Part shown: positions 23,347-42,097 of the stretch, one piece after another
How the letters are laid out: the number at the start of each line of letters is the position of its first letter
Numbering within the stretch: position 1 is the first letter of the stretch
Assembly (NCBI GenBank): GCA_029266635.1
Contig: JAQSWM010000013.1
Coordinates: 1 to 64,000 of the forward strand
DNA: 64,000 nt
Reading direction: 5' to 3'
From: Sphingobacteriaceae bacterium
GTDB lineage: Bacteria > Bacteroidota > Bacteroidia > Sphingobacteriales > Sphingobacteriaceae
Position numbers and translations under genes: made by a program
The notes under the pieces: generated by a model
Databases searched by the model: none
What the model saw: only the letters and a program-made list of their open reading frames with translations
Told to the model about the DNA's origin: nothing

Positions 23347-24636
23347 ATGGCTACTACAGCAGTTAAGGCGCAGCCCGCTAAGGGATTAAATCCTATTGTA
23401 ATTATTGGGATTCTGTTTTTCATTTTCGGGTTTGTTACCTGGTTGAACGGGCCGCTTATTACGTTCGTAAAGTTGGCCTTTGCATTAGATACTGATTCAA
23501 AAGCCTTTTTAGTTACTACCGCGTTCTATATGGCGTACTTTTTCCTGGCAATACCCTCCGCTTGGATACTCAAGGCTACCGGAATGAAGAATGGTATGGC
23601 TTTCGGATTGCTTGTTATGGCCATTGGAACCTTTCTGTTTGGCACATTCGCAACAGACCGCAACTATCCGCTGGCTCTTACTGGCCTCTTTGTAATCGCT
23701 TCCGGGATGTCATTGATTCAAACCGCTTGTAACCCTTACATAAGCATTCTTGGTCCTATAGAAAGTGCTGCAAAGCGTATCAGCATTATGGGAATTTGCA
23801 ACAAGTTTGGCGGGCTGATCAGTCCGGTAATATTAAGCACATTCATACTAAAAGATATTGATGGGTTCGCCGATAAGGTAACGAAAGCTCCCGATGTAGC
23901 TACCCGTGAATCTATACTTAACGACTTTGCTTCGAAAATCTATACTCCGTACATGGGCATGGCAGTTTTGCTTGTACTGCTTGCACTTTGGACCTTCAGA
24001 TCAGGATTGCCCGCAATTAAGGCATCGGAATCAAATGCTGAAGTCACCACTCCGGAATCTAAAGGCAGAAACAGTGTATTTCAGTTTCCATACCTCATGC
24101 TGGGCGTTCTTTGCATTTTCCTTTATGTAGGTGTTGAAGTAATGGCTGGTGACGCAATAGGAACATACGGCAGAAGCTTCGGTTTACCGCTGGATGAAAC
24201 CAAGTTCCTGACCTCGATGACCCTTGCCTTTATGCTCGTTGGTTATGTAATAGGGATCATAGCGATACCGAAATATCTCTCGCAAGCAAATGGGCTTAAA
24301 TACTCAGCTATTCTCGGCGTGCTCTTTACAATAGGCGCTTTCCTAACCAAAGGATATGTTTCTGTTGGATTTGTAGCTGCGTTAGGATTAGCTAACGCCT
24401 TAATGTGGCCTGCTATTTGGCCTTTAGCGATAAGGGGACTTGGAAGATTTACAGAAACAGGATCTGCATTGTTGATCATGGGTATAGCCGGGGGAGCCAC
24501 AATTCCATTGCTATTCGGCCATTTCAAAGAGATTTATGATTTTCAAGCGGTGTTTGCAGCGTTGATGTTACCTTGCTACCTATACATCCTTTATTACGGA
24601 ACTGCGGGTTATAAAATCGGGCAACGTTCAAAATAG
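23347..24636 (+). CDS. Sugar MFS transporter, FucP/GluP family
   Basis: The 429-residue protein has about twelve membrane helices and the FucP-type pattern: FGFVTWLNGPLITFVK in helix 1, the TAFYMAYFFLAIPSAWILK stretch in helix 2, and IQTACNPYISILGP in the middle of the N-terminal half. Members take up fucose, glucose, galactose or N-acetylglucosamine with protons. The C-terminal half contains YVGVEVMAGDAIGTYG, also typical. The exact sugar cannot be assigned. The dCMP-deaminase-like gene follows after five bases, so the two are cotranscribed. Confidence 0.92.
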   Translation: MATTAVKAQPAKGLNPIVIIGILFFIFGFVTWLNGPLITFVKLAFALDTDSKAFLVTTAFYMAYFFLAIPSAWILKATGMKNGMAFGLLVMAIGTFLFGTFATDRNYPLALTGLFVIASGMSLIQTACNPYISILGPIESAAKRISIMGICNKFGGLISPVILSTFILKDIDGFADKVTKAPDVATRESILNDFASKIYTPYMGMAVLLVLLALWTFRSGLPAIKASESNAEVTTPESKGRNSVFQFPYLMLGVLCIFLYVGVEVMAGDAIGTYGRSFGLPLDETKFLTSMTLAFMLVGYVIGIIAIPKYLSQANGLKYSAILGVLFTIGAFLTKGYVSVGFVAALGLANALMWPAIWPLAIRGLGRFTETGSALLIMGIAGGATIPLLFGHFKEIYDFQAVFAALMLPCYLYILYYGTAGYKIGQRSK

Positions 24637-24641
24637 CCTTA

Positions 24642-25097
24642 ATGGACAAACCCAGCTTCAATTCCATTTTTATGAATTTAGCCTCCGACCTGGCCAAGCG
24701 CTCTCATTGCGTGAAGGCTCAGGTCGGAGCTGTTTTAACGAAAGATACCCGTATCATTTCCATCGGCTATAATGGCCCGCCCGCCGGAACCCACAACTGT
24801 GACGAAGAATGGCCCGAAACCGGCTGCCCACGCGATGCCCGCGGAAGCTGCTCACTTGCACTCCATGCCGAGGAAAATGCAATATTATACGCAGTGAAAA
24901 ATGGCTCAAGCCTGGAAGGGGCAACGCTGTTCCTCACGCTTTCGCCGTGCCTGCCATGCGCAAGGACTATCTTTTCGTCCGGTATTAAGAGAGTGATTTA
25001 TAAAAATTCTTATGCCGAATACAAGGGACTTCCCAGCGACGAGGGAGTGGATTTTTTAAACAGGTTTGGGGTAAGTGCGGTGAAGTTTGGAGGCTAA
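24642..25097 (+). CDS. Deoxycytidylate deaminase family protein (ComEB-like)
   Basis: The 151-residue protein has the zinc-dependent deaminase core: HAEENAILYA supplies the His and catalytic Glu, and SPCLPCARTIFSSGIKRVIY supplies the Cys pair. The N-terminal segment SHCVKAQVGAVLTKDTRIIS and GYNGPPAGTHNCDE are typical of dCMP deaminases, which convert dCMP to dUMP for thymidylate synthesis. It starts five bases after the sugar transporter stop and is followed after six bases by a small membrane protein gene, so the three form an operon of unclear logic. Confidence 0.9.
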   Translation: MDKPSFNSIFMNLASDLAKRSHCVKAQVGAVLTKDTRIISIGYNGPPAGTHNCDEEWPETGCPRDARGSCSLALHAEENAILYAVKNGSSLEGATLFLTLSPCLPCARTIFSSGIKRVIYKNSYAEYKGLPSDEGVDFLNRFGVSAVKFGG

Positions 25098-25103
25098 CAG
25101 GAA

Positions 25104-25436
25104 ATGTTAAGGATCAGAAATATGGCTGTTGTTGTAGCTCTGCTTTTTACACTAGGCTTAACTATCAATTTTTTTAGAAGAGAACTGTTCGGTATAGTTC
25201 CAGGCTATGCTCCGCATAACTTTGGTTTTAATGCGTTTTTCTTCATTCCATTTAACTTCCTTTTACTGCTGTCGTCCCTGTTCATCATTCTCAGAACAGC
25301 CTCTTTGTGGACAGATTCTTCAGCTAAAAAATTGAAAGTTCAGTCGCTGGGCCTCACTTTACCTATAATCGCCCTGATGCTTTTTCAGCTGTTACGAATT
25401 TTAGCTTATGTCGCATTTCCCTTCAGCTCCCAATGA
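25104..25436 (+). CDS. Small membrane protein, unrecognised
   Basis: The 110-residue product has three likely membrane helices: residues 7-22, about 44-64, and about 84-106. The loops are short and basic. No family was recognised. Its start lies six bases after the dCMP-deaminase-like gene, and AGGAA just before the ATG could serve as a ribosome binding site. The last 31 bases overlap the 3' end of the gene on the opposite strand, an unusually long convergent overlap; both reading frames nevertheless look coding. Confidence 0.65.
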   Translation: MLRIRNMAVVVALLFTLGLTINFFRRELFGIVPGYAPHNFGFNAFFFIPFNFLLLLSSLFIILRTASLWTDSSAKKLKVQSLGLTLPIIALMLFQLLRILAYVAFPFSSQ

Positions 25437-25657
25437 TCTTTCAGGATTGTGCCGTCTGGCTTGTACTTGAGCGTACGGGCGTAGCGCTCGCCTTTAACGG
25501 TTCCCTGCTCCGTGCGCTTTCCCATAAAGAGTAGAATGGCATTGCCATCTTTATCGGTTTTGAAAGAGAGGTCGTAAGTTTTGTAACGCATGTCAACCAT
25601 CGTATCTGGTTCATGCTTTTTGTTAAGAAGCTTTAGGAGCTCGTCGTTGAATTTCAT
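25406..25657 (-). CDS. Conserved hypothetical small protein
   Basis: The 83-residue product starts at MKFNDELLKLLNKKHEPDT; the open frame extends nine codons further but the ATG at 25657 is a more natural start. The sequence MRYKTYDLSFKTDKDGNAIL and the ending YKPDGTILKDHWELKGNAT suggest a small beta-rich cytoplasmic protein. It has no signal peptide or known motif, and I do not recognise the family. It lies 46 bases downstream of the esterase gene on the same strand and may be its last cotranscribed partner. The 3' end overlaps the membrane-protein gene convergently. Confidence 0.6.
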   Translation of the reverse strand: MKFNDELLKLLNKKHEPDTMVDMRYKTYDLSFKTDKDGNAILLFMGKRTEQGTVKGERYARTLKYKPDGTILKDHWELKGNAT

Positions 25658-25703
25658 CACAGACTGCTTTCTGATGAAAAGCAAATCTGATTCAAAGAGT
25701 TTG

Positions 25704-26615
25704 CTATTTTATAACATCAATAGTCTTCAGCCAATTCTCCACCCGGTCCATCCACTTATCTTCTGTGGTTTTGTTGTTGATGCCGAAGCCGTGCCCGCCT
25801 TTTGCGTAGATGTGCAGCTCCGCGGGTACGCCATGCTGTTGAAGAGCTTCATAGAACTTCAGGCTGTTGCCGACTTTAACGGTTTTATCATCCCCGGCGT
25901 GGAAAAGTAAAGTCGGAGGAGTTTGTTTGGTTACCTGTAATTCGTTTGAGTATAATTCTATTTGGCTGGCTGACGGCTCAGCGCCGAGTAGATTAGTTTT
26001 TGAGCCTTTGTGCATCAGGCTGTCGCTGAAGCTGATTACCGGGTAGCCCAGGATCATGAAGCTTGGGCGAAGACTGATGCCTTCCTTGTTTTCTATCACC
26101 GGTTTATTGAAGTGTGTGCCTGCGGTTGATGCCAGATGGCCACCCGCAGAAAACCCGATTATCCCAACTCTCGCCGTATCAATGTTCCATTCCTTCGCTC
26201 TCTGGCGTACCGTTTTAATAGCAGTCTGTGCATCCTGCAAAGGCCCGATGCTTTTATCCGCCATGATCTTATCGCTTGGAATCCGATATTTAAGGATAAA
26301 GGCCGAAATTCCCATCTTGTTGAACTCTTTGGCGATGTTAATTCCTTCGTTGACATAAGATACAATGCTGTAGCCGCCGCCCGGGCAAATCACAACCGCT
26401 GCGCCATTGGCTTTATCTTTTGGAGCCAGAAATATCTCAAGAGTTGGTATTGAAACCTTCCCGTATCGTATGTTGCCGTTGGGATCGTTAGTCTTGGTTT
26501 CCTCGTCTGCTCCAGCGATGGAGTTCGGGATATTTCCAGGATAAAGAGGGATGAGCTGGGCTTGCGTTTGTACGGCCATGCAGATAAGAAGCGATGCTAA
26601 AAAGGTGCGGATCAT
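25704..26615 (-). CDS. Secreted alpha/beta hydrolase (acetylxylan-esterase/BD-FAE-like)
   Basis: The 303-residue protein has a signal peptide (residues 1-19, ending at QAQ) and an alpha/beta hydrolase fold. The oxyanion segment VVICPGGGYSIVSYVNEG, the nucleophile elbow GFSAGGHLAS, the acid region LFHAGDDKTVKVGNS and the terminal His in KGGHGFGI are all visible. This pattern is seen in secreted carbohydrate esterases that remove acetyl groups from plant polysaccharides, so a hemicellulose role is a reasonable inference. The sulfatase gene lies 60 bases upstream on the same strand; together they suggest polysaccharide degradation. Confidence 0.88.
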   Translation of the reverse strand: MIRTFLASLLICMAVQTQAQLIPLYPGNIPNSIAGADEETKTNDPNGNIRYGKVSIPTLEIFLAPKDKANGAAVVICPGGGYSIVSYVNEGINIAKEFNKMGISAFILKYRIPSDKIMADKSIGPLQDAQTAIKTVRQRAKEWNIDTARVGIIGFSAGGHLASTAGTHFNKPVIENKEGISLRPSFMILGYPVISFSDSLMHKGSKTNLLGAEPSASQIELYSNELQVTKQTPPTLLFHAGDDKTVKVGNSLKFYEALQQHGVPAELHIYAKGGHGFGINNKTTEDKWMDRVENWLKTIDVIK

Positions 26616-26675
26616 AATGCGATTATAGAGCTAAGATAATAATCTTACAGGTACGTTATTGCATTGACCTGCGGG

Positions 26676-28127
26676 CTAGTTCACTCTCCCCGGCTCTCTT
26701 ACATTCTCCCCTTTTCGCTTCTGCAGGTCGTCGCCCAGATCAGTGCGGGCAGCTTCTGCGATTTTCTCCAGAGCGGCAACGATGTCGGGATTTTCCTTGC
26801 TCACATCGTATCGTTCTCCGGGATCGCGTTCGAGGTTATAAAGTGCAAGTGGGAACTCCCTGTCTTCAGGTGCAATTCCGGGCAAGCCGCCTTTTCCGGG
26901 GGCGTTGAGCTCATAGGTGCGTCCCGGATGTGGGAAGACGAGTTTCCAGTTGTTTTTCCTCACTGCCTCAAGTGAGTTCTTACGATAATAGTACAGGAAT
27001 TCAGTACGTGGCGTCTGGCTGTTATCGCCCTTTAGCAATTTGGTGAAATCCAACCCGTCAATTTTGTTTTTAGGGAGTTTGGCACCGCAAAGGTTTGCCA
27101 CAGTAGGCAGAATATCAATTGTGCTGAGCAGCTTGTTGCAAACTCTTGCCGCAGGAACAACTCCCGGCCAGCGGATAATGCAGGGCTCACGTTGCCCGCC
27201 CTCAAATGATGTTCCTTTTCCTTCCCTGAACCCGCCTGCCGAGCCCGCGTGGTCGCCATAATTCAGCCACGGACCATTGTCGCTGGTGAAAACCACCATT
27301 GTGTTTTTATCAAGCCCCTGCTTTTTCAGTTCACCCAATATCTGCCCAACCGACCAGTCGATCTCCATCAATACATCGCCGAAAAGCCCACGCTCACTTT
27401 TTCCCCTGAAAGCCGCCGACGCTGCAAGCGGCACATGCGGCAAAGGATGCGGCACATACATGAAGAATGGTTCGTTTTTGTGTTTGCGAATGAAGTTGAC
27501 CGCTCTTTCAGTAACCGACCCAGTTAATTCAGCAATATCATCAAGGCTCTTAGCTGTCTTTACAACCTTTTCTCCATCATAAATCGGCAGCATCGGGTAC
27601 TTTGCATTCCGCTGGTTCGGATGTAATGGCCACATATCATGCGAGTAAGGGACTCCGTAATACTCATCAAATCCCTGTTTTAGCGGCATGAACTCGGGCT
27701 TGCTTCCCAAATGCCATTTGCCAAAAATCCCCGTAGCATAACCCCGTGCTTTTAACAGATCGGCGATAGTTTCTTCCTTTGGGTTCAAGCCGATCTCAGA
27801 ATTTGGGCTTAGTGCGCCGCTCAAGCCAACCCTGTTCGGATAACATCCTGTGAGCAGTGCCGCACGTGAAGCGCTGCATACCGCCTGGGCAGCCATGAAA
27901 TTGGTGAAAAAAGTTCCTTCTGTAGCCATGCGGTCAATGTTCGGCGTGTTATAGCCTAAAGCGCCAGTGAGCGACAGGTCGCCATAACCCATGTCATCCA
28001 AAAAGATGACGACAACATTGGGCTTGGAGGGTACAGTTTGTTGGCTAAAAGCTCCTGTAAAAGAAAGGAGGCAAAAAGCAAGGGTGCTAAAGAAGGTAGT
28101 TGCAGAAAGTTTCGGGGTGTTGAGCAT
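26676..28127 (-). CDS. Secreted Cys-type sulfatase (arylsulfatase family)
   Basis: This 483-residue enzyme should hydrolyse sulfate esters. After a signal peptide (residues 1-30) it shows the metal-binding VVIFLDDMGYGDL, then the active-site motif CSASR at residues 84-88 within AVCSASRAALLTGCYPNR, and later FTSDNGPW. The Cys must be converted to formylglycine by a maturase not identified in this window. The conserved GKWHLG is also present. The frame opens nine codons earlier (28154); the ATG at 28127 gives a better signal peptide. The esterase downstream is probably cotranscribed. Confidence 0.92.
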   Translation of the reverse strand: MLNTPKLSATTFFSTLAFCLLSFTGAFSQQTVPSKPNVVVIFLDDMGYGDLSLTGALGYNTPNIDRMATEGTFFTNFMAAQAVCSASRAALLTGCYPNRVGLSGALSPNSEIGLNPKEETIADLLKARGYATGIFGKWHLGSKPEFMPLKQGFDEYYGVPYSHDMWPLHPNQRNAKYPMLPIYDGEKVVKTAKSLDDIAELTGSVTERAVNFIRKHKNEPFFMYVPHPLPHVPLAASAAFRGKSERGLFGDVLMEIDWSVGQILGELKKQGLDKNTMVVFTSDNGPWLNYGDHAGSAGGFREGKGTSFEGGQREPCIIRWPGVVPAARVCNKLLSTIDILPTVANLCGAKLPKNKIDGLDFTKLLKGDNSQTPRTEFLYYYRKNSLEAVRKNNWKLVFPHPGRTYELNAPGKGGLPGIAPEDREFPLALYNLERDPGERYDVSKENPDIVAALEKIAEAARTDLGDDLQKRKGENVREPGRVN

Positions 28128-28337
28128 GCTGACGGAAAAGTTATTGTTCAGCACTAATGTAGAAAAAATGCCGACAGCGTGGCTTACATCACAAAGCGTA
28201 ACTTAATTGTTATAAGACTGAAGTCAACAAAAAGCAGCTTCAATCCTCAGCGTAAGCAGACATCTTGACTGGCAGAGAATTGTTCAAATGAGATTGCCAA
28301 GATGAATTATTGGATCGTCAGGATTCATCACAAACAT

Positions 28338-29048
28338 TTAGTGGCTTCGTGGAGATATGGTCTGAAGGCTTGAGACAGGTGTTCGCACCTCCATTATCGT
28401 TCGGATCGATTTAGTATTTGTCATTCTCGTAACCATGATAATAGTCGATTTTACCGGATGCTTATTAACAGCAGCCGGAATAAAAGCACTTTGAATCTCT
28501 TTTTCTATGCCGGTCAGGTTTCGCGTTCCGGCAGAGTTCCATTCAGGAGATATGATCTTATAATCCCATTTTAGCAACTCGCCCGTTTCGGAGATAGAAA
28601 GATAATGTACTACCTGAAAAGTGCCTTCGTGGGAGAGCATCTCAACAGGAAAATAGCTTAGCAGAAGTTTGCTTTGTCCCAGGCTTCCCTCTAAAATAGC
28701 AGGGTTGCTGACTGTGTCACCTGGCTTTTTATCGAATTCAAAGCTTACCCCTGCAGGAGGGCGATTATACTGCAGTTTCCTGGTATCGTAATTATAAACC
28801 TGCTGAATTGAATCCTGGTCATAGAACAACCATCTTCCCACACGTTTTCCTGCCGCATATTTGCCCGTGCCAACCAAGGTAGTACCGTGATATATTTTAC
28901 AGGCACCGTTACGGACTTTCCGATCAGTTTTCAGCACTTCATACTCTTCAGCTATGTTCCTGGACAGTGCATTCTTTTTAATGATTACTTCCTGCGAAAA
29001 AGCCGAAGCAGGCACAAAGAAGAGAAAAAGCAGTGCGAGGTTTTTCAC
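28338..29048 (-). CDS. Exported protein with a MORN-like segment
   Basis: The 236-residue protein has a clear signal peptide (residues 1-18, ASAFSQ). The middle holds a MORN-like stretch with GTGKYAAGKRVGRWLFYDQ, a pattern seen in the so-called YwqK family; that name does not prove an antitoxin role. The C-terminal half is beta-rich with a Ser/Thr-rich end. It is probably periplasmic or surface located. The gene is divergent from the acyltransferase, with 63 bases between the starts. No specific function can be given. Confidence 0.7.
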   Translation of the reverse strand: MKNLALLFLFFVPASAFSQEVIIKKNALSRNIAEEYEVLKTDRKVRNGACKIYHGTTLVGTGKYAAGKRVGRWLFYDQDSIQQVYNYDTRKLQYNRPPAGVSFEFDKKPGDTVSNPAILEGSLGQSKLLLSYFPVEMLSHEGTFQVVHYLSISETGELLKWDYKIISPEWNSAGTRNLTGIEKEIQSAFIPAAVNKHPVKSTIIMVTRMTNTKSIRTIMEVRTPVSSLQTISPRSH

Positions 29049-29111
29049 GCGGTTAGTTTAACCCCTAAGATAAACATATTTTCGTCCCGGTATAAATGCG
29101 ATAGTACATCT

Positions 29112-30188
29112 ATGAATACTGAACTTAAAGAACCCAAGGAGCATTTCAAAATACTCGACGGGCTTCGCGGGATAGCCGCTCTCGGCGTTGTTATTTTTCA
29201 CTTTATGGAATGGGTTTATACCGATCCAAGCCGAAACTTCATCGGGCATGGATTCTTAGCCGTGGATTTTTTCTTTTGCCTTTCGGGATTTGTGATTGGC
29301 TATGCTTACGATAACAGGATCGGGGAAATGGGCGTGACTGAATTCTTCAAGAGGCGGCTCATCCGGCTGCACCCGCTCGTGATCCTTGGCTCCGTTCTTG
29401 GGCTGCTGGGCTTTCTGCTCGATCCGTTTGCAGCTGGTAGTGCTTATTCCGCAGGCAGGTTGCTGTTGATTTTCCTCTGCTCTGCTTTCCTGATTCCTTT
29501 TCCGGTGATGGAAGACCGGGCATTTAACTTGTTTGGACTTAATGCGCCCTCCTGGTCTTTGTTTTGGGAGTATGTTGCCAACATTGTATATGCTTTTGTA
29601 CTCTGCAAACTTAGCCGCCCCGCCCTCATGGTCCTTGCAGTGATTGCCGGAGCTACGCTTTGCTTTGTGGGATGTCGTACGGGAAACCTGCTGGGAGGAT
29701 GGGCTGGCTCAAACTTCTGGGATGGCGGCGCCCGCATCGCCTGGTCGTTTACTGCCGGACTGCTGATCTACCGCTCAAACTGGATCATTAAAAATAAACT
29801 CGGCTTCATTGGCTTGGGAGTGCTGCTGGCACTTGCTTTTTTAACGCCACATTTCGAATGGAACTGGTTGGCCGAGCTTCTGATCGTGCTGTTCTATTTT
29901 CCGCTGATTGTTGCTTTGGGTGCCGGCTCTGTACTGTCGCCGACGCTGGAGAAAGCTTGTGTTTTCTCCGGAAAGATTTCTTACCCGCTGTACATGACGC
30001 ACTACGCCGGGATCTGGATATTCGGGAATTACCTCACCAATTTCAAACCCGCTGCAACTCAACTGCCTATCATTATTATCGCTGGAACAATCTTCCTGCT
30101 TTTCTTTGGGTACCTGGCGATGGGTTTTTATGATATTCCTGTCAGGAGGTATTTAGAACGGAGAAGATTAGAGACGGAGAGGAGGTAA
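29112..30188 (+). CDS. Acyltransferase family 3 membrane protein (OafA/YrhL type)
   Basis: The protein belongs to the large integral-membrane acyltransferase family that transfers acetyl or other acyl groups to sugars, lipids or glycans. It opens with ILDGLRGIAALGVVIFHF, where the RG and later His are family hallmarks, and has FLAVDFFFCLSGFVIGYAY with the conserved FF.LSGF motif. About ten membrane helices follow. The open frame extends 75 codons upstream to 28887, but those residues overlap the divergent exported-protein gene and lack family features, so the ATG at 29112 is chosen (358 residues). Substrate unknown. Confidence 0.88.
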   Translation: MNTELKEPKEHFKILDGLRGIAALGVVIFHFMEWVYTDPSRNFIGHGFLAVDFFFCLSGFVIGYAYDNRIGEMGVTEFFKRRLIRLHPLVILGSVLGLLGFLLDPFAAGSAYSAGRLLLIFLCSAFLIPFPVMEDRAFNLFGLNAPSWSLFWEYVANIVYAFVLCKLSRPALMVLAVIAGATLCFVGCRTGNLLGGWAGSNFWDGGARIAWSFTAGLLIYRSNWIIKNKLGFIGLGVLLALAFLTPHFEWNWLAELLIVLFYFPLIVALGAGSVLSPTLEKACVFSGKISYPLYMTHYAGIWIFGNYLTNFKPAATQLPIIIIAGTIFLLFFGYLAMGFYDIPVRRYLERRRLETERR

Positions 30189-30228
30189 GGACCGCTCTGT
30201 ATTTGTCGTAGCTTCACCATGCTACCAG

Positions 30229-30338
30229 GTTCAGTTCAGGTTAATACCAGCATCAGCTCTTGTTCAGCTCAGAATACTCTCAGGGGCGGTTTTACTGAAC
30301 AAGAACTGAACACTACCTGAACAAGAGCTGAACAAACT
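30229..30338. repeat. 11-bp-phased GTTCAG/CTGAAC repeat with inverted arms
   Basis: Four CTGAAC-headed units start at 30295, 30306, 30317 and 30328, exactly 11 bases apart (for example CTGAACAAGAA, CTGAACAAGAG). On the left, GTTCAG occurs at 30229, 30234 and 30262, and a degenerate unit at 30251, and three of these fall in the same 11-base register. Fifteen bases of the left part (30253-30267) are perfectly complementary to 30317-30331. The stretch lies between the acyltransferase stop and a strong terminator. Function is unknown; it could fold as RNA or act as a phased protein-binding array. Confidence 0.7.
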
Positions 30339-30442
30339 GTCTGGAAACGAGCTTTTTTAGCAAAACTATTCTCAGCGTACGCTTGCGGCTAGAGGAAATT
30401 GATCGGTCAATTAGCCAGGCATCACCGTTTGAATAGAGCAAG

Positions 30443-30481
30443 AATTGGAGGTCGCAAATTGCGTCCTCCAATTGTTTTTTT
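30443..30481 (+). terminator. Strong intrinsic terminator
   Basis: AATTGGAGG (30443-30451) pairs perfectly with CCTCCAATT (30465-30473), and CGCAA (30453-30457) with TTGCG (30459-30463) inside it, with a single T-T mismatch between the two helices. A G and seven T follow. It ends before the chimeric pseudogene and may terminate the acyltransferase transcript. Confidence 0.8.
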
Positions 30482-30509
30482 AAACATATTTGTAAATCAA
30501 AGTAAAGTC

Positions 30510-30850
30510 ATGACTAAAGGTATCATGGTTCCTGATGAAATGATTATCAATAAAATCTACCTTATCAGAGAACAAAAAGTAATGATAGACCGAGACACGG
30601 AAACTGCCATCGAGATACAGGAATATGCCTCTAAATATTGCCAGCCCTCGTTCGGCATCGGAACTCATTTCACAAACGACTTTGAAGGCGTGAAGCCATG
30701 AATATCGTTATCAAGCTTATTGCCGTTAAAATCACAGAACTGTGGACGTTTTACAATGACACCTGCAAGATAAGTGAAGATGAAGGAAAGCATTCCGGGA
30801 AACCTGAGGTAGTGCGGCGCTTTATGGAAGCTCTGCATATGGTAGGGTAG
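30510..30850 (+). pseudogene. Chimeric remnant: ORF6N-domain start joined to a frameshifted nicotinate phosphoribosyltransferase end
   Basis: From the ATG at 30510, the first 29 codons (with MVPDEMIINKIYLIREQKVM followed by IDRD) match the start of ORF6N-domain proteins, phage-related DNA-binding proteins. From about 30597 the frame reads TETAIEIQEYASKYCQPSFG followed by IGTHFTND, which is the C-terminal signature of nicotinate phosphoribosyltransferase (PncB). The frame then stops after FEGVKP, but a shift by one base at about 30698 continues with MNIVIKLIAVKITELW and later EGKHSGKPEVVRRFMEALHM, the expected PncB end, to a stop at 30848. So two gene fragments are fused and the second carries a one-base deletion. 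It is not expected to encode a working enzyme. Confidence 0.8.
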
Positions 30851-30892
30851 TTCGCAAGCGTTCAGCGTTCAAAACCATATCCGGATTAACGT

Positions 30893-30900
30893 TAGCTTTG
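30893..30900 (+). promoter_or_regulatory. Candidate -7 promoter element of the HMA-AraC gene
   Basis: TAGCTTTG matches TAnnTTTG, 23 bases before the ATG at 30924. The -33 region has no clear TTG. Confidence 0.5.
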
Positions 30901-30923
30901 CATTTCTGTAACTATAAAGAGCC

Positions 30924-31487
30924 ATGTCCAAAATCTTCATAAAAAATATGGTTTGCAACCGCTGTGTGATGGTGGTGGAAAACGAATTAGAGAAGTTAGG
31001 ATTGCAGGCGGACAGAGTTGGATTAGGCGAGGTGGAGCTTGATAAGGAACTCAGTCAGGATGAAAAGGAGAGGCTAAGCACATCTCTTACCAAATTAGGA
31101 TTCGAACTCATTGATGATCGCAAAAGCCGGATCATTGAAAAGATAAAGACCGTAATTATTGAGACGGTACATCATCATCAGCACGATGCAAAGCATAACT
31201 TGTCTGACGTGTTAAGCAGCGAACTCAATCACGATTATAATTATTTGTCAAATCTTTTCTCCGATGTGGAAGGCACCACCATTGAGAAATATTTCATCGC
31301 TCAGAAAATAGAAAAGGTTAAGGAACTACTCGTGTATGATGAACTTTCCTTAAGCGAAATCGCGTTTCAGCTAAACTATTCGAGCGTGGCTTATCTGAGC
31401 AACCAGTTTAAGAAAGTTACCGGTTTGTCGCCCAGCCACTTCAAGCAGATCCGCGAGGAAAAGAGAAAGCCTTTAGATCAGGTGTAA
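30924..31487 (+). CDS. Metal-binding (HMA-like) AraC family transcriptional regulator
   Basis: The 187-residue protein joins an N-terminal domain resembling a heavy-metal-associated fold (residues 1-65, with MVCNRC giving Cys11 and Cys14) to a C-terminal AraC/XylS DNA-binding domain (about residues 85-180, with LSLSEIAFQLNYSSVAYLSN as the first HTH and FKKVTGLSPSHFKQIR as the second). The linker contains the His-rich HHHQHDAKH. This arrangement suggests direct sensing of copper or a similar metal and control of the next gene, copA, 79 bases downstream. It lacks the arabinose-type sensor domain. Metal identity and direction of control are inferred. Confidence 0.88.
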   Translation: MSKIFIKNMVCNRCVMVVENELEKLGLQADRVGLGEVELDKELSQDEKERLSTSLTKLGFELIDDRKSRIIEKIKTVIIETVHHHQHDAKHNLSDVLSSELNHDYNYLSNLFSDVEGTTIEKYFIAQKIEKVKELLVYDELSLSEIAFQLNYSSVAYLSNQFKKVTGLSPSHFKQIREEKRKPLDQV

Positions 31488-31496
31488 ATCTTACAA

Positions 31497-31510
31497 CTCA
31501 AAGTCGGAAT
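31497..31510. promoter_or_regulatory. Candidate operator in front of copA
   Basis: CTCAAAGTCGGAAT lies 57 bases before the copA start. A near copy, CTCAAAGCCGGAAC, is found at 34062 before the HMA chaperone gene (12 of 14 bases the same). The HMA-AraC regulator would be the natural reader; this is inference from two sites. Confidence 0.35.
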
Positions 31511-31566
31511 ATCGTAACAGCCAGTCCTAACCTTAGTGCCACCTTTGTGTACTTAATAGTATCGAT

Positions 31567-33987
31567 ATGGCAACCGAGAATCAAAATAAAGAAATCATAT
31601 ATCTTCCCCTCGAAGATGTTGAAAGCGAGCATTGTGCACTGATCGTGGACAAAGGCCTTTCGCAGGTAAAGGGTATAGAAAGCCACAAGGTTGAGCTGAA
31701 TAATCACAGAGCGGCTATAACGGTAGCCGATCCCGCTGCGGTGCCCGAGGCAATTTTCGCCATCCGGGACCTTGGCTATGGCGTAACTACCGTCAAAAAA
31801 ACAATTCCCGTGCTGGGCATGTCATGTGCCTCCTGCGCAGGCAGTGCCGAAAGCATCGCGAAAGCTACCGAAGGCGTTGTTAGTGCGTCTGTAAACTATG
31901 GCACCGGCAACCTCACCGTTGAGTATCTCCCCAATATAACCGATGCATCCAGGTTGCAGAAAGCAGTTCAGTCTATCGGGTACGATCTGCTCATTGAAGA
32001 TGAAAGCACTCAACAGGAAACTCTGGAGGCTATTCACCAGGAGAAGTTCGGAAAATTAAAGAGGAAAACCATACTTGCTGTGTTGCTGTCGCTTCCGGTG
32101 GTAGCAATTGGTATGTTTTTCATGAACATCCCTTACGCCAACGAGATCATGTGGTTTTTTGCTACGCCGGTTGTGCTCTGGTTGGGCAAGGATTTCTTAG
32201 TAAACGCATGGAAGCAGGCTAAACACCGTTCAGCAAACATGGATACGCTGGTTGCCCTGAGCACGGGTATCGCTTATATTTTCAGCGTGTTCAATATGCT
32301 GTTCCCTGAGTTCTGGCATCAGCGTGGGCTGCATGCGCACGTATATTTTGAAGCAGCATCAGTGGTAATTGCATTTATCCTACTGGGTAAATTGCTGGAG
32401 GAAAAAGCGAAGGGAAATACATCTACAGCCATCAAGAAACTGATGGGCTTACAGCCGAAAACGGTAACGGTTATCTCGGACGACGGCAATGAAAAGCAAG
32501 CCGCCATTGAAGATGTAGCTGCCGGCGATATTATCCTGGTGAAGCCCGGAGAACGGATTGCCGTGGATGGGATGGTGACTTCGGGCAGCTCTTATGTGGA
32601 CGAAAGTATGCTGAGCGGCGAGCCTGTGCCGGTGCTAAAGGGAGAAAACGAAAAGGTTTTTGCGGGAACGATCAACCAAAAAGGCAGCTTCCGGTTTAAA
32701 GCCGTGAAAGTTGGCAAAGAAACCATGTTGGCGCACATCATAAAGATGGTTCAGGATGCGCAGGGAAGTAAGGCTCCGGTGCAAAAGCTGGTGGATAAAA
32801 TCGCGGGTATTTTTGTTCCGGTTGTGATCGGGATCGCTGTCTTCACCTTTATTTTATGGCTGATCCTTGGCGGCGATAATGGTATTGTGCAGGGGCTTTT
32901 AGCTGCGGTGACAGTGCTGGTAATTGCTTGTCCGTGTGCGCTGGGACTTGCTACTCCGACAGCAATTATGGTGGGTGTAGGCAAGGGGGCAGAAAACGGT
33001 ATCCTGATCAAAGATGCCGAAAGCCTGGAGCTTGCTAAAAAGGTAAACGCCATTGTGCTCGATAAGACCGGGACCATTACCGAAGGTAAACCCGAGGTTA
33101 CAGACATTAAGTGGCTGGGAAACGATGATGCCGCGAAAGATATATTATTCAGCATCGAAAAACAGTCTGAACACCCTTTGGCAGAAGCCGTTGTAAAGTA
33201 TTTTCAGGGGGCGAACTCTGTCTCGTTTTCTGCATTCGAAAGCATTACAGGTGCAGGTGTTAAAGCCGTAAAAGATGGCGAAAGCTATTTGGTAGGAAAT
33301 AAAAAGCTGCTGTTGGAGAATAATATAGTGGTAGATAATCAGCTACAGCAACACGCAGGCGAGTGGAGCAATCTTTCCAAAACTGTGATCTGGTTCGCTG
33401 ATAGCAAAAGAGCCCTGGCCGTTATAGCTATTGCCGATAAGATAAAAGACAGCTCGGTTGACGCCATCAGGCAATTGCAGGAAATGGGAATTGATCTCTA
33501 CATGCTTACGGGAGATAATGAGGCAACTGCAAAGTCCATCGCAGAACAAACCGGCTTGAAACACTACAAAGCAGAGGTTTTGCCACAGCACAAAGCCGAT
33601 TTTATAAAGGAATTGCAAAGCCAGGGCAAGGTAGTTGCCATGGTTGGCGACGGCATCAACGACAGCACGGCACTCGCCACAGCAGATGTGAGCATCGCAA
33701 TGGGCAAGGGCAGCGACATAGCCATGGACGTGGCTAAAATGACCATCATCTCTTCCGATCTCACCAAGATCCCGCAAGCCATCCGCTTGTCGAAGCAGAC
33801 TGTAGCAACAATCAAGCAGAATCTGTTCTGGGCATTCATTTACAACCTGATCGGTATTCCCCTTGCTGCCGGGCTTCTTTACCCGATCAACGGCTTCTTG
33901 TTGAACCCCATGATTGCAGGTGCAGCCATGGCACTCAGCAGCGTGAGCGTGGTTAGCAACAGCCTCCGCCTGAAGTGGAAGACGTAA
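31567..33987 (+). CDS. copA: Copper-exporting P1B-type ATPase
   Basis: The 806-residue ATPase pumps Cu(I) out of the cytoplasm. It has two N-terminal HMA-like domains: the first (residues 1-75) has lost the CxxC motif, keeping only one Cys, while the second has GMSCASCAG with Cys87 and Cys90. The membrane site CPC (Cys455-Pro-Cys457), the phosphorylation motif DKTGTITEGKP (Asp499), SEHPLAEAV and GDGINDSTAL (from residue 694) are intact, and the C-terminal helices carry the Asn, Tyr, Met and Ser residues of the Cu(I) group. It follows the HMA-AraC regulator and precedes the chaperone, forming a copper-homeostasis unit. Confidence 0.95.
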   Translation: MATENQNKEIIYLPLEDVESEHCALIVDKGLSQVKGIESHKVELNNHRAAITVADPAAVPEAIFAIRDLGYGVTTVKKTIPVLGMSCASCAGSAESIAKATEGVVSASVNYGTGNLTVEYLPNITDASRLQKAVQSIGYDLLIEDESTQQETLEAIHQEKFGKLKRKTILAVLLSLPVVAIGMFFMNIPYANEIMWFFATPVVLWLGKDFLVNAWKQAKHRSANMDTLVALSTGIAYIFSVFNMLFPEFWHQRGLHAHVYFEAASVVIAFILLGKLLEEKAKGNTSTAIKKLMGLQPKTVTVISDDGNEKQAAIEDVAAGDIILVKPGERIAVDGMVTSGSSYVDESMLSGEPVPVLKGENEKVFAGTINQKGSFRFKAVKVGKETMLAHIIKMVQDAQGSKAPVQKLVDKIAGIFVPVVIGIAVFTFILWLILGGDNGIVQGLLAAVTVLVIACPCALGLATPTAIMVGVGKGAENGILIKDAESLELAKKVNAIVLDKTGTITEGKPEVTDIKWLGNDDAAKDILFSIEKQSEHPLAEAVVKYFQGANSVSFSAFESITGAGVKAVKDGESYLVGNKKLLLENNIVVDNQLQQHAGEWSNLSKTVIWFADSKRALAVIAIADKIKDSSVDAIRQLQEMGIDLYMLTGDNEATAKSIAEQTGLKHYKAEVLPQHKADFIKELQSQGKVVAMVGDGINDSTALATADVSIAMGKGSDIAMDVAKMTIISSDLTKIPQAIRLSKQTVATIKQNLFWAFIYNLIGIPLAAGLLYPINGFLLNPMIAGAAMALSSVSVVSNSLRLKWKT

Positions 33988-34061
33988 TCAGCCTTCGGGC
34001 GCCGACTACCAAATCAGTAAAAGTCACAAATCAAACACGAAAAAGTGTAAAGCTGGCAGCG

Positions 34062-34075
34062 CTCAAAGCCGGAAC
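34062..34075. promoter_or_regulatory. Candidate operator in front of the HMA chaperone gene
   Basis: CTCAAAGCCGGAAC repeats the motif seen upstream of copA. It directly abuts GAACTTTG, a one-mismatch version of the -7 element, so a bound regulator would lie at the promoter. Confidence 0.35.
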
Positions 34076-34109
34076 TTTGCAGTATTAATCAGCAGTAAAT
34101 TATAAGAAA

Positions 34110-34325
34110 ATGGAAAATCTTCAGTTTAAAACAAATATCAATTGCGGTGGATGTGTAGCTTCAGTAAAGCCGCATCTGGATGGCGCAGAGGGAATCTGCG
34201 AATGGAATGTTGACACCGCCAATCAGGAAAAGATCCTTACAGTGAAGGCTGATGGCATCACCAAAGAGGATGTAGTAAAAATTGTAGAAAAAGCAGGTTT
34301 CAAAATCGCTTCAGTAGAAGCATAA
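34110..34325 (+). CDS. Small HMA-domain copper chaperone
   Basis: The 71-residue protein is a single heavy-metal-associated domain with the beta-alpha-beta-beta-alpha-beta pattern. Its metal loop is INCGGCVASV, with Cys12 and Cys15, rather than the classical MxCxxC. Such CopZ-like proteins carry Cu(I) to the P-type ATPase. Its position just after copA and under a related operator motif supports that role. It has no signal peptide, so it works in the cytoplasm. The DUF3347 gene starts 11 bases after the stop, so the two are likely cotranscribed. Confidence 0.92.
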   Translation: MENLQFKTNINCGGCVASVKPHLDGAEGICEWNVDTANQEKILTVKADGITKEDVVKIVEKAGFKIASVEA

Positions 34326-34336
34326 AAATCAAAATT

Positions 34337-34777
34337 ATGAAAAAGTTAGTTTTTGCATTGGCTGTGATGTTATTCAGCTATTCGGCATTTGCCCAGAATA
34401 CAAAGAAACACTTGAGCAGTTACCTGGCAGTGAAAAATGCGCTGGTAAGCGGCGATAGCAAAGCAGCATCGCAGGCAGTTATCACCTTGCAACAAAGCAT
34501 TAAAGAGGATGCCAGCTTCGCTGAAAAAGAGACCTTGCTCAAATCCCTGAGCGAAATGGCTAAGGCTGGCAATATTGCCGGTCAAAGAGCGGTCTTTAAC
34601 GATGTTTCCACCAACATCTGGAAAGTTATTAAAAGCTCCGATGCTGTAGTAGAGCCGATTTACTATCAATACTGCCCGATGAAAAAAGCGTATTGGCTGA
34701 GCAGTGAAAAGCAGATCAAAAATCCTTACTACGGCTCAGCGATGCTTGCCTGCGGCAGCGTCGTAGAAACTAAATAA
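34337..34777 (+). CDS. DUF3347 domain exported protein
   Basis: The 146-residue protein has a signal peptide (residues 1-19, SYSAFAQ) and a DUF3347 domain. The helical part is followed by the conserved C-terminal motif YYQYCPMKKAYWLSSEKQI, in which Cys113 and Met115 could bind Cu(I), and by NPYYGSAMLACGSV. In many Bacteroidota this domain is found at the end of CusB-like efflux proteins or alone beside copper genes, so a periplasmic copper-binding role is likely but not proven. A strong terminator follows at 34804. Confidence 0.88.
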   Translation: MKKLVFALAVMLFSYSAFAQNTKKHLSSYLAVKNALVSGDSKAASQAVITLQQSIKEDASFAEKETLLKSLSEMAKAGNIAGQRAVFNDVSTNIWKVIKSSDAVVEPIYYQYCPMKKAYWLSSEKQIKNPYYGSAMLACGSVVETK

Positions 34778-34803
34778 TTCGTCCGTAATAACGGCCATTA
34801 TCG

Positions 34804-34834
34804 AAGGCATTGTTCTAAGGCAATGCCTTTTTTG
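34804..34834 (+). terminator. Intrinsic terminator after the DUF3347 gene
   Basis: AAGGCATTG and CAATGCCTT form a perfect 9-bp stem around an 8-base loop, followed by a T run. It separates the copper ATPase/chaperone unit from the multicopper oxidase. Confidence 0.9.
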
Positions 34835-34859
34835 TTCCGCATTAATTCAGATGTATATC

Positions 34860-37094
34860 ATGAAATTTTTTCAGAGAATGCTGCCGCTGATACTCCTGCT
34901 CGTAGCGCAACTGGCTGCAGCGCAAAAGGTGGTGCGCTATGATCTTTACGTAAAAGATACCCTTGTAAACTATACCGGTAAAGAGAAGCCGGCTATCGCT
35001 GTAAACGGGCAAATCCCAATGCCAACCCTCGAATTCACCGAAGGCGACACGGCGGAGATAGTCGTCCATAACCAGCTCAAGGAAAACACTTCTTTGCATT
35101 GGCACGGAGTTTTTGTTCCCAATAAAGAAGATGGCGTGCCTTTCCTCACCCAAATGCCCATCAAGCCCGGCACAAGCTACACCTATCGTTTTCCCATCAT
35201 TCAAAATGGTACGCACTGGTATCATTCGCATTCAGGTTTGCAGGAGCAAAATGGAATGTTCGGCAGTTTCATTATGAAGAAAAAGGCTGGTGATAGAACT
35301 TTCAGAAAAGGTATTGACGATTTGCCCACAGTTCCCATAATCCTAAGCGAGTGGACCAACCTGGATCCTGAAAATGTTCAGAGAATGCTCAGCAATGCCA
35401 GCGATTGGTTCGCCATCAAAAAAGGTGCTACTCAAAGCTATGCAGAGGCTATTCGCCGCGGGCAGTTCACTGCTAAACTTACTAACGAATGGAAGCGGAT
35501 GATGGCGATGGACGTGAGCGATATTTACTACGACCAGGTGCAGATGAATGGAAATCATTTTACGGATCTGAAAAGCATCAATGGAAAGGCACTGAAAGCC
35601 GGCGACAAAGTTCGTTTACGCATCGCGAACGGCGGAGCATCTTCTTATTTCTGGCTGCGATATTCGGGCGGTAAAATCACGGTTGTTGCGAGTGATGGCA
35701 ATGATGTGGAGCCGGTGGAAGTGGGCAGGCTGATAATCGCGGTATCCGAGACCTATGATATCGTGCTAACCATCCCTGAAGCCGGCAAAGCCTACGAGCT
35801 GATGGCCACCACCGAAGACCGCACTCAGTCAACAAGCTATTTCATTGGTAATGGTGCTAAGCAGCCCGTCGGGGAAATGCCTCGCCTGAAATATTTTGAG
35901 GGCATGAAGATGATGAACGATATGATGAAGATGAACGGCGATCTGGACGATATGGGAATGAGCATGAGCCTGAACCAGATGGACATGAACGCTGTGATGT
36001 ATCCGGAAATAAGCGGTGAGGCTGATAAAGGAATGAAAATGGGCGAGGGCACCAGCCATCACCAAGCCGAACCTCAGGGCGACATCACTACCCTGAACTA
36101 TACCATGCTAAAATCTCCGCTCAACACCACACTGCCCAAGGCGGCCCCTGTAAAAGAGCTGAAGTTCACCCTCACAGGAAACATGAACCGCTACGTGTGG
36201 AGCATGGACAATCGGGTGCTTGCAGAAAGCGATAAGATTCCTGTTAAAAAAGGTGAAATTTTGCGAATAACACTTCACAATAATTCCATGATGCGGCATC
36301 CGATGCACCTGCATGGATTCGACTTCCGGGTGCTGAATGGCCAGGGCGAAAATGCCCCATTGAAAAACGTGCTTGATATTATGCCAATGGAAACTGACAC
36401 AATCGAGTTCCTGGCAAATACAGAAGGCGATTGGTTTTTCCATTGCCACATCCTCTACCACATGATGGCAGGCATGAACCGGGTGCTTGCGGTTGGCGAT
36501 TATAAAAATCCTGAACTGCCCGACAAGGAAATTGCTTATAAAATGCTGCAACGCGAGAGCAATATGGTGCATTTCTCGACCGAAAACGATTTCGCCACAA
36601 ACGGGAACGACGGCCAGGCAATGCTGATGAATGCGAGGTGGAATCTCGGGACGGAATGGCGCCTGGGCTACAACGACATGCATGGCTATGAAGTGGAAAC
36701 GCACTTAGGAAGGCTGTTAGGGAAGAACCAGTGGTATATGCCTTTTATGGGCTTTGACTGGCGCTACCGGAAAATGGGCATAGATGAACAGGAAAAGAAC
36801 ATCTTCGGGCAGGTAGACAAAAAAGACAACCGGGCCGCAGTAAGTGTTGGCATGATGGCAACTTTGCCCATGTTAGTTAATTTGCAGGGCGAAGTGTACC
36901 ACGACGGAATTGTACGATTTTCTCTCATGAGGGAAGATATACCTGTTTCAAGCAGATTAAGAGCAGGATTTATGGTCAACACCGATAAGGAATACATGCT
37001 CGACATGCGATATATTTTTACGAGAAATCTGGGGATCCGCACCCATTACGATAGTGATATGGGATTTGGTGTAGGTTTATCGCTGAATTACTAG
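34860..37094 (+). CDS. Periplasmic multicopper oxidase with Met-rich insert and extra C-terminal domain
   Basis: The protein (744 residues from the ATG at 34860; the frame also has an ATG at 34851) has a signal peptide ending in AAAQ. All four copper-ligand motifs are present: HWHG (residues 80-83), HWYHSH (119-124), HPMHLHG (480-486) and HCHILYHMMAGM (528-539), where Cys529, His534 and Met539 bind type 1 copper. Residues 349-400 form a Met- and Asp-rich insert with two His, as in copper-oxidising CopA/PcoA enzymes. The last 190 residues are not part of the oxidase fold; they are rich in short aromatic beta strands and resemble an outer-membrane CopB-like barrel. The likely role is periplasmic Cu(I) oxidation. 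Confidence 0.88.
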   Translation: MKFFQRMLPLILLLVAQLAAAQKVVRYDLYVKDTLVNYTGKEKPAIAVNGQIPMPTLEFTEGDTAEIVVHNQLKENTSLHWHGVFVPNKEDGVPFLTQMPIKPGTSYTYRFPIIQNGTHWYHSHSGLQEQNGMFGSFIMKKKAGDRTFRKGIDDLPTVPIILSEWTNLDPENVQRMLSNASDWFAIKKGATQSYAEAIRRGQFTAKLTNEWKRMMAMDVSDIYYDQVQMNGNHFTDLKSINGKALKAGDKVRLRIANGGASSYFWLRYSGGKITVVASDGNDVEPVEVGRLIIAVSETYDIVLTIPEAGKAYELMATTEDRTQSTSYFIGNGAKQPVGEMPRLKYFEGMKMMNDMMKMNGDLDDMGMSMSLNQMDMNAVMYPEISGEADKGMKMGEGTSHHQAEPQGDITTLNYTMLKSPLNTTLPKAAPVKELKFTLTGNMNRYVWSMDNRVLAESDKIPVKKGEILRITLHNNSMMRHPMHLHGFDFRVLNGQGENAPLKNVLDIMPMETDTIEFLANTEGDWFFHCHILYHMMAGMNRVLAVGDYKNPELPDKEIAYKMLQRESNMVHFSTENDFATNGNDGQAMLMNARWNLGTEWRLGYNDMHGYEVETHLGRLLGKNQWYMPFMGFDWRYRKMGIDEQEKNIFGQVDKKDNRAAVSVGMMATLPMLVNLQGEVYHDGIVRFSLMREDIPVSSRLRAGFMVNTDKEYMLDMRYIFTRNLGIRTHYDSDMGFGVGLSLNY

Positions 37095-37116
37095 CAGCTT
37101 AAAATGCGTTTTTGAC

Positions 37117-37698
37117 ATGATAAAGAAACCTTATTTTTCATTCTCTAACATCAGTACCGCTATTCTGATCGCTTTTTCATTGCTGATGGTATTCAGTCCG
37201 GATGCAAAAGCTTTGGTGTTAAGAGGTCTGATGCAAATCGGCTTGTTTCAACCTGACGTGGGCGTTGGAAAGACAAACGCTCAAATCTTGCCCGATTTTA
37301 GCTTCAGGGACAGCACCGGCAAGGCCGTGAGTTTGTCGAGCCTAAGAGGTAAAGTTGTGTTCATCAATTTCTGGGCAACCTGGTGCCCGCCGTGCCGGGC
37401 CGAAATGCCCGCGATCAATGAGTTATACAATGTGATGAAGCATAACGACAAAATCGAATTTTTAATGGTAGATGTAGATAATGATTACACGAAAGCCAGA
37501 AATTATATAAATAAAGAACATCTCAATCTGCCGGTCTTAACACCAGTGGGCGAAATTCCCGAGAGCCTTTTAGGTGGCCCGATACCTACGACGCTTATTT
37601 TGAACACAAAAGGCGAGCTGGTATTTAAGCATGAAGGCGCATCAGATTTCTCCGGAAAAAAGGTGCATGATTACTTGACTGCCCTAAGCCGGGAATAG
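37117..37698 (+). CDS. TlpA family thiol-disulfide oxidoreductase
   Basis: The 193-residue protein has an N-terminal membrane anchor or signal (residues 10-30) and a thioredoxin fold with the active site WATWCPPCRAEMP (Cys90 and Cys93). The GPIPTTLILNTKGELVFKHEG segment contains the cis-Pro. TlpA/ResA-type proteins reduce disulfides in the periplasm, often for cytochrome c or copper-centre assembly. Its place between the multicopper oxidase and the cytochrome-containing nitrite reductase suits such a role. The gene starts 22 bases after the oxidase stop, so the two are probably cotranscribed. Confidence 0.9.
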   Translation: MIKKPYFSFSNISTAILIAFSLLMVFSPDAKALVLRGLMQIGLFQPDVGVGKTNAQILPDFSFRDSTGKAVSLSSLRGKVVFINFWATWCPPCRAEMPAINELYNVMKHNDKIEFLMVDVDNDYTKARNYINKEHLNLPVLTPVGEIPESLLGGPIPTTLILNTKGELVFKHEGASDFSGKKVHDYLTALSRE

Positions 37699-37783
37699 CT
37701 CTGCGCAATATTATCCCAGATCCAGCTCTTCTACCAGCTGCCAATCCGCCAAACAATCCATCCTGGAAAATCATTTATTTACA

Positions 37784-37795
37784 TGACGTACGTCA
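37784..37795. promoter_or_regulatory. FNR/DNR-like palindrome upstream of nirK
   Basis: TGACGTACGTCA is a perfect 12-base palindrome and fits the TGAC-N4-GTCA form of Crp/FNR/DNR boxes. Its centre is about 97 bases before the nirK ATG and about 42 bases before a transcript start predicted from the TTTG at 37823-37826. That spacing fits activator sites at -41.5. Regulator identity is inferred. Confidence 0.55.
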
Positions 37796-37885
37796 CATTT
37801 TAGAGGCGCATATCTGATGAAATTTGTACAAACGCTTAAAGCTGATTAAAACAGTATTTTTAAACGCCCAACACAAATAAAACTT

Positions 37886-39322
37886 ATGCGTATTCTTCAA
37901 ACCAAACTTGTTATCGCACTCCTGCTAAGCACTATCGTTTTCGGCGGCTGTGTAAGAAAATCAAAGAAAGCTAAAGATGATGGCAAAATGACCGGCCAGT
38001 ATGAGGCTGAGCTTACAGATGCCCCATTGGTTCCAGCATCTCCAGGCTATGACTATCCCAAAAAAGTGGTTGTCAGGCTGGAAGTTCTGGAACATGTAAT
38101 GCGCCTCGCCGATGGAGTGGAATACAATTTCTGGACATTCGGTGGCAAGGTGCCGGGAAAATTTATCCGGGTACGCGAAGGTGATGATGTTGAATTTTAC
38201 CTTAGCAATCACCCCAATAATAAACTCCCTCACAATATCGATTTACACGCTGTAACCGGTCCGGGTGGCGGTGCCGAAGGCTCCATGACAGCTCCCGGCC
38301 ATACTTCGCAGTTCTCTTTCAAAGCGCTCAATCCGGGCTTGTTTATTTACCACTGCGCCACTGCGCCGGTTGGCATGCACATCGCAAACGGTATGTACGG
38401 TTTGATTTTCGTTGAACCAAAAGAAGGTTTGCCGAAAGTTGATAAGGAGTTTTACATCATGCAGAGCGAGTTCTATACAAAAGCCAAGTTTGGTACGCCG
38501 GGATTAACCTCGTTCGACATGGGCAAGGCATTTGACGAACAGCCCGACTATGTAGTTTTCAATGGCTCTGTAGGAGCGGCAATGGGCGACAACGCAATGC
38601 AGGTGAAAGTTGGTGAAACTGTTCGCTTGTATGTTGGAAATGCCGGTCCCGGGCTGGTTTCTTCTTTCCACGTAATCGGTGAAATATTTGACAAGGTTCA
38701 TGTAGAAGGCGGGAAGTTGATAAATGAAAATATTGGTACTACATTGATACCTGCCGGTGGAACTGCCATTGTGGAGTTCAAATGCGAAACTCCCGGCGCA
38801 CTCACACTGGTTGACCACTCTATTTTCCGGGCATTTAACAAAGGTGCGCTGGCACAAATTAAGGTAGTGGGCGAAGGCAATCAGGAAGTTTACTCAGGCA
38901 AGCAAAAGGATATGGTTTATCAGCCTGAAGGTTCAGCCATACAGTCTATCACCAAAGCAACTCCTGCCGCAGTCGTTCCAGAGAAGTCTCAGGCAGAGCG
39001 GATGCTGAACGGAAAAATATTATTTGAAGGCAACTGCGCCGCCTGTCACCAGGTTAATGGCGAAGGCCTTCCCGGAGCATTCCCGCCGCTTGCTAATTCA
39101 GACTACCTGATGGCACGTGCCGACAAAGGCGTTGGAATTCCGCTGCATGGCTTAAGTGGTAAAATCAAGGTTAACGGTAAAGAATACGATGGTGTGATGC
39201 CTCAAATGCAGTTGACTGATGATGAAATTGCCAGCATTATGACTTATGTGCGCAATAGCTGGGGCAACAAAGGCGGCTTAGTGAAAGCGTCTGATGTGAA
39301 GTCGGAAAGAGATAAAAAGTAA
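37886..39322 (+). CDS. nirK: Copper nitrite reductase with C-terminal cytochrome c domain
   Basis: This 478-residue lipoprotein (Cys22 at FGGC) should reduce nitrite to nitric oxide. Two cupredoxin domains carry the type 2 copper and catalytic residues ([14 protein letters not shown]) and the type 1 ligands ([18 protein letters not shown], with His156 and Cys157). A later [11 protein letters not shown] supplies the last His. A linker then leads to a cytochrome c domain, with CAACH at 384-388 and an axial Met in GVMPQM, which can pass electrons directly to the type 1 copper. Such three-domain NirK proteins are known in other phyla. The gene overlaps nirV by one base and lies under an FNR/DNR-like site. 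Confidence 0.93.
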
Positions 39323-40107: not shown

Positions 40108-40142
40108 GATTTATTCGCGGGATGCGGGATAAAATAAAGATC

Positions 40143-40754: not shown

Positions 40755-40778
40755 ACAGATACATTACTGGAAATAGAT

Positions 40779-40811: not shown

Positions 40812-40814
40812 ATG

Positions 40815-42059: not shown

Positions 42060-42097
42060 CTGCGTCGTTTTTTATGTGATACTTTGATTTGTTGCTG

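Follow-up and report, generated by a model that had tools for sequence, protein, structure and literature searches.

A relic of two dead genes ahead of a copper module and a palindrome of ORF6N genes as a candidate recognition site

The question posed by the locus

Directly before the copper module in the window (the whole stretch of 64,000 nucleotides of DNA from a Sphingobacteriaceae bacterium that was analysed here), the stretch at 30510-30850 begins like an ORF6N gene and ends like pncB, the gene for nicotinate phosphoribosyltransferase. Is this the scar of a mobile element or a product of ordinary gene decay, and does any part of it still carry a signal? The features on which the answer draws are as follows.

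30440-30476, no strand assigned: palindrome upstream of the ORF6N start (arms of 18 bases, complementary at 89%, 1-base spacer)
30510-30596, plus strand: ORF6N stump, first 29 codons (tblastn, 72% identity, E 1e-8)
30594-30596, plus strand: GAC at the joint, which either parent could supply (shared by L002 and L070, absent from the four other pncB genes compared)
30597-30698, plus strand: pncB tail, first frame, in frame with ORF6N (tblastn; Pfam NAPRTase with both frames joined)
30692-30701, plus strand: frame-change zone, with the first-frame stop codon at 30699-30701 (tblastn, ORF list)
30701-30850, plus strand: pncB tail, second frame, with the stop codon at 30848-30850 (tblastn to 30844; ORF end)
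30924-31487, plus strand: AraC-type regulator, an intact neighbour that heads the copper module (Pfam HTH_18, E 6.5e-16; relatives 68-78% identical, 80 loci)

Two gene ends joined in one stretch

The frame that opens at the ATG at 30510 stops at 30699-30701. Its first 29 codons align with residues 1-29 of the ORF6N protein of a relative, as listed above, and are matched at 30522-30599 by an ORF6N profile built in this analysis (2.9e-6); at the DNA level, 66 bases of this part align with genome G024 at 79% (E 1.7e-8). The score against Pfam PF10543 is below the cut-off of that family (13.2 vs 27.8 bits, profile positions 1-16 of 86), Pfam alone being weak on so short a piece, and descent from an ORF6N gene is indicated by the tblastn identity together with the matching palindrome upstream of the intact ORF6N gene of G024. 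The remainder scores above the cut-off of the NAPRTase family (PF04095; 27.5 vs 20.8 bits, profile positions 154-206 of 239) when the two window frames are joined by the analyst before scoring, and the pncB gene of genome G092 aligns with it in two pieces, 30594-30698 and 30701-30844, that lie in different frames (tblastn, E 1e-8). The copy in the window is thus not a complete open frame of pncB: it comprises approximately the last 83 codons, in two frames. Both assignments made in the preliminary description, as well as the frameshift in the second part, are borne out by these comparisons, with the frame change at about 30692-30701.

The joint had been placed within a GAC shared by the two parents and attributed to short-homology recombination. 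This triplet is indeed present at 30594-30596 in the window, in the ORF6N relative L002 and in the pncB gene of L070; the four remaining pncB genes compared have Asn at the joint position, not GAC. Since only one of the five pncB genes carries the triplet, and three bases are weak evidence in any case, the argument for short-homology recombination is weak.

No homologue of the whole chimera conserved as an intact protein was found in the genomes searched: 6 of 59 relatives match the window DNA, each in one part only, and among 295 other genomes the pncB tail was matched in 19, at pncB alone (18 with frames of 392-451 residues, one with a 49-residue frame) and in no case with both halves. Searches of the window's own genome, the assembly of which is about 96% complete, did not detect pncB elsewhere. 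A pncB match was obtained in 27 of 100 genomes of one set, and the gene is therefore often absent. The best match of the tail, in the wider genome search and in a comparison to which 16 of 26 pncB loci contributed, comes from G092, a genome of another family, and the dead pncB may for this reason have come from outside, a point that so short and decayed a tail could hardly settle.

The stretch consists of the opposite ends of two different genes, joined. Because no other pncB was detected in the genome and none of the homologues contains both halves, 30510-30850 is a relic of two dead genes. Judging from what is missing, neither stump would be workable as a regulator or as an enzyme. The scar is real, and it is a case of ordinary gene decay that leaves the genome without a detected pncB.

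Origin of the scar

The ORF6N gene would have lost all sequence beyond codon 29, and the pncB gene all sequence ahead of approximately its last 83 codons; the stumps would then have been joined, most simply by a single deletion between the two co-oriented genes, after which the pncB stump would have lost its frame. Such a deletion is probably the simplest route; among the sequences compared, no parent arrangement was found.

The preliminary description held instead that an ORF6N-type element had moved through the site and removed sequence. In its explicit form, this explanation posits that an element carrying an ORF6N gene inserted in or near pncB and left imprecisely, in connection with the arrival of the copper module. 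ORF6N genes are carried by plasmids (24 records), 5 of the 80 copper loci examined have one at a distance of about 5.5-5.7 kb from AraC, and a weak inverted pair (22 bases, 77% complementary, 30861-30882 and 38908-38929) spans most of the copper module. However, this is the only repeat pair near the stretch, its second arm is located inside a coding ORF, and the repeats over 28000-41500 mark no element. Furthermore, no integrase or transposase was detected among the 28 of 47 window ORFs of at least 150 residues that were scanned, there is no tRNA gene in 24000-44000, rpoC-like and gyrB-like genes are found among the surroundings, and the loci of relatives examined (80 copper AraC loci and the relatives of the acyltransferase gene) contained no empty site. 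ORF6N proteins match phage anti-repressor families, not transposases or integrases. The passage of an element is therefore unsupported, and we rejected it as a footprint at this site, considering it quite unlikely; the joint, the frame change and the pseudogene status hold, so that the earlier interpretation is partly supported.

Of at least 555 copper AraC loci, 80 were kept, and in these the AraC gene is never directly preceded by a recognizable pncB or ORF6N gene, although a stump as short as the present one could be missed; pncB is present in 2, and in the 5 mentioned above the ORF6N gene is encoded on the opposite strand. ORF6N genes can thus occur in the same region as copper genes, but in a different arrangement. 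The acyltransferase gene upstream of the relic has matches in 25 of 60 genomes, its own included, and the five best relatives outside that genome do not share the other neighbors found in the window; the window's genome is the only member of its genus among the relatives searched. The genome's other ORF6N gene (C8:135394) was rejected as the source of the stump because its palindrome is different, of the GGTATCAC type.

No match to the window DNA was obtained among plasmids. Two further observations concern these regions. The ORF6N genes of five copper AraC loci from different genera (L075, L078, L084, L088 and L092) have a near-identical coding palindrome with GAGGTTCC arms which, together with their distance of 5.5-5.7 kb from AraC, suggests that one shared mobile element is behind them. 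In the window, a cluster of CTGAACA-type repeats at 30229-30335, between the acyltransferase gene and the relic, contains three 18-base copies in steps of 11, as well as a perfect 15-base inverted pair (30253-30267 and 30317-30331).

A palindrome in and before ORF6N genes

The palindrome upstream of the stump has a 23-base core, GGAGGTCGCAAATTGCGTCCTCC, at 30447-30469, with one mismatched pair, 40 bases before the ORF6N start, and an almost identical palindrome lies about as far ahead of the intact ORF6N gene of G024. A run of T follows the window palindrome; an intrinsic terminator at this position was rejected, given that a terminator scan of 30100-31000 detected none. The palindrome at 30440-30476 is the part of the relic that is still meaningful; the window copy would be a beheaded one that retains the putative upstream signal alone.

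The same type of palindrome is found inside ORF6N coding regions, at one place, and sometimes also before the start. We compared the genes with shuffled versions in which synonymous codons were swapped, leaving the protein and the codon usage unchanged. In sample A (77 genes from 71 loci, without the window's own copy and the second readings of four frameshifted loci), the palindrome scored higher than all 60 shuffles in 54 genes, with a mean score of 11.6 compared to 5.5, and in 66 of the 77 the highest-scoring palindrome within the first 390 bases had its center at base 195-206. In sample B (102 genes from 105 loci, four of which gave none and one gave two), 76 genes surpassed all 100 shuffles (score 11.8 vs 5.7), 62 of them with the center at base 201. 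The same result was obtained for 18 of the 33 genes of a viral sample that partly overlaps sample A (one duplicate dropped, two genes partial, and seven on contigs already used, six in sample A and one in the test of plasmid genes described below). As a control, 69 segments from the 23 usable pncB loci of 26 were treated in the same manner, and only one surpassed its shuffles. Because sample A holds near-identical genes from one element type, the 179 genes of samples A and B were clustered at 60% identity after removal of the palindrome; among the 35 representatives, 21 still surpassed all 100 shuffles.

The two arms vary in concert. Arm pairing is 0.78 and 0.81 in two samples, against at most 0.58 and at most 0.63, respectively, in 500 arm swaps, and 0.72 among the representatives, for which 1000 arm swaps gave no value above 0.53; at position 4, for example, the pairs in 59 genes are A-T (22), C-G (18) and G-C (15). 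At one and the same position in the protein, the palindrome occurs in more than one reading frame and encodes dissimilar amino acids. Given that the shuffles are surpassed, the arms covary and more than one reading frame is used, a symmetry of the DNA itself appears to be kept in ORF6N genes.

Outside the Bacteroidota, four plasmid genes were tested. The coding palindrome is present in the gene from Treponema saccharophilum (its score was reached by 0 of 200 shuffles) and nearly so in that from Sulfuricurvum (1 of 200); in the Butyrivibrio gene the coding copy is weaker (17 of 200) and is accompanied by a closely similar, perfect copy upstream, and the Haliovirga gene has no coding palindrome (102 of 200). 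The coding copy is also absent from L002, the nearest relative of the stump. When one gene has both an upstream and a coding palindrome, the two show no clear match (p 0.10, n=23), and their outer arms differ. At a Treponema saccharophilum locus (L394:1-1142), the ORF6N gene directly follows genes for a winged-helix regulator and a class I DNA methyltransferase.

Distribution of the site in genomes and viruses

A genome-wide scan of 60 genomes, allowing up to two mismatches to a pattern that was itself derived from the ORF6N loci of those genomes, yielded 45 sites, compared to a single site for the reversed pattern. Relative to a list of ORF6N genes from which four overlapping or weak match rows were left out, 25 of the sites are inside ORF6N genes, 10 are at most 300 bases before one, including the window's own site, and 10 are elsewhere. 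In viral contigs, the exact pattern was found in 41 stretches, mostly between genes, with an ORF6N gene in 7 of the 41. Considering the 10 genomic sites elsewhere and the intergenic viral sites, the palindrome is not confined to ORF6N genes. Exact copies between genes, away from a detected ORF6N gene, are located at L206:1419-1439 and in the viral stretches L208-L248, and viral copies are often found beside runs of A or T. A viral search with one protein recovered 1 locus.

The ORF6N protein

The ORF6N family corresponds to PHROGs phrog_4792, annotated as anti-repressor. A model of the ORF6N domain based on 32 sequences has a mean pLDDT of 80.6, compared to 53 for an earlier prediction from 10 sequences. 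This model is weakly similar to winged-helix DNA-binding domains (4ye7, Z 6.5; SKI-like and Dachshund, 5.8-6.1; RacA, 5.0; Mbp1, 4.2; MerR types, about 3-5), values so low that, according to the tool's own warning, they may reflect chance arrangements. No chain was matched at Z of 8 or above by VIA-align, the best Foldseek match is weak (E 0.087), and comparison of the ORF6N sequence with solved structures gave no convincing match. The palindrome encodes approximately residues 62-72 of the modelled protein, covering the last part of a helix together with a portion of the loop that was modelled with the lowest confidence (68-76).

What the palindrome might do

We consider the palindrome, in the relic as in intact genes, to be a candidate recognition site of the ORF6N protein, such that the gene would carry its own operator; we would assign this reading, taken together with the origin of the relic outlined above, a probability of roughly 0.65. 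The ORF6N protein would bind the palindrome in or before its own gene, a predicted operator-like site, and thereby control that gene, which would amount to autoregulation via a putative operator; the copies between phage genes could be further targets of the same protein. That a putative recognition palindrome resides at one place in the ORF6N coding sequence in several phyla, with the protein stretch hosting a DNA signal while amino acids and frame vary, with additional copies before some starts and between phage genes, and with only the upstream signal kept in the window relic, seems to us somewhat better than an even bet. Several observations do not fit a simple operator: the upstream and coding copies are not clearly matched, the coding copy is missing from some genes, 10 of the 45 genomic sites are off ORF6N genes, only 7 of the 41 viral stretches contain an ORF6N gene, and the structural matches are weak.

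A different source of the symmetry could be mutation, not selection. In quasi-palindrome correction, one arm of a near-palindrome is overwritten with a copy of the other through template switching, and this would account for the many sequences in which the arms are perfect although the sequence itself varies, as well as for the difference between the outer arms of the upstream and coding copies. However, template switching leaves unexplained why genes from several phyla share one core at one location, why further copies precede the start and why the effect is nearly absent from the pncB control (1 of 69 segments), and we regard it as unlikely. A hairpin in the ORF6N mRNA, acting on translation or on transcript ends, has even less to commend it. 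The transcript of the palindrome can fold, and the run of T after the window palindrome is compatible with such a role, but the terminator scan came up empty, and mismatches in the arms are G-U less often than A-C (6 vs 14 and 6 vs 20 in two samples, 7 vs 15 in another count). This lack of G-U enrichment speaks against a hairpin in the sense RNA, which we rejected on these grounds as quite unlikely.

Recognition by the ORF6N protein thus remains the preferred reading. As far as could be tested, the palindrome is a family-wide, DNA-level feature of ORF6N genes, and this is the part of the analysis worth following. ORF6N is a widespread, little studied family of phage-like regulators that apparently keeps a DNA signal in its own coding sequence; as a potential target site for these proteins, the palindrome is concrete and open to experiment, and it is a clear case of a DNA-level constraint acting via amino acid changes.

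Comparison with known systems

The stump is the start of a gene of the ORF6N family (PF10543; phrog_4792), and the class of palindromes is found in and before genes of this family; the stump differs from other members in retaining 29 codons only. Likewise, the window holds the last part of PncB (PF04095), without most of the protein and with the tail in two frames. No description of the ORF6N palindrome was found in the literature searched, most subscription journals being outside its reach; passages of PMC6591296, which mentions both ORF6N and 'palindrom', concern phage annotation and CRISPR.

In size, the palindrome resembles REP palindromes, which are 20-40 bases long (PMC3733652). The difference lies in abundance and location: the ORF6N pattern occurs at 0-4 sites per genome (with at most two mismatches), mostly in or before one gene family, and lacks the high intergenic copy number of REP palindromes.

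Autogenous operator sites of transcription regulators are palindromes close to the start of the regulator gene. The ORF6N palindrome is similarly located near the gene start, and the product of the gene has a model weakly resembling DNA-binding domains. Unlike these operators, the ORF6N palindrome is found chiefly within the coding sequence, in a single position where the amino acids yield to the symmetry of the DNA.
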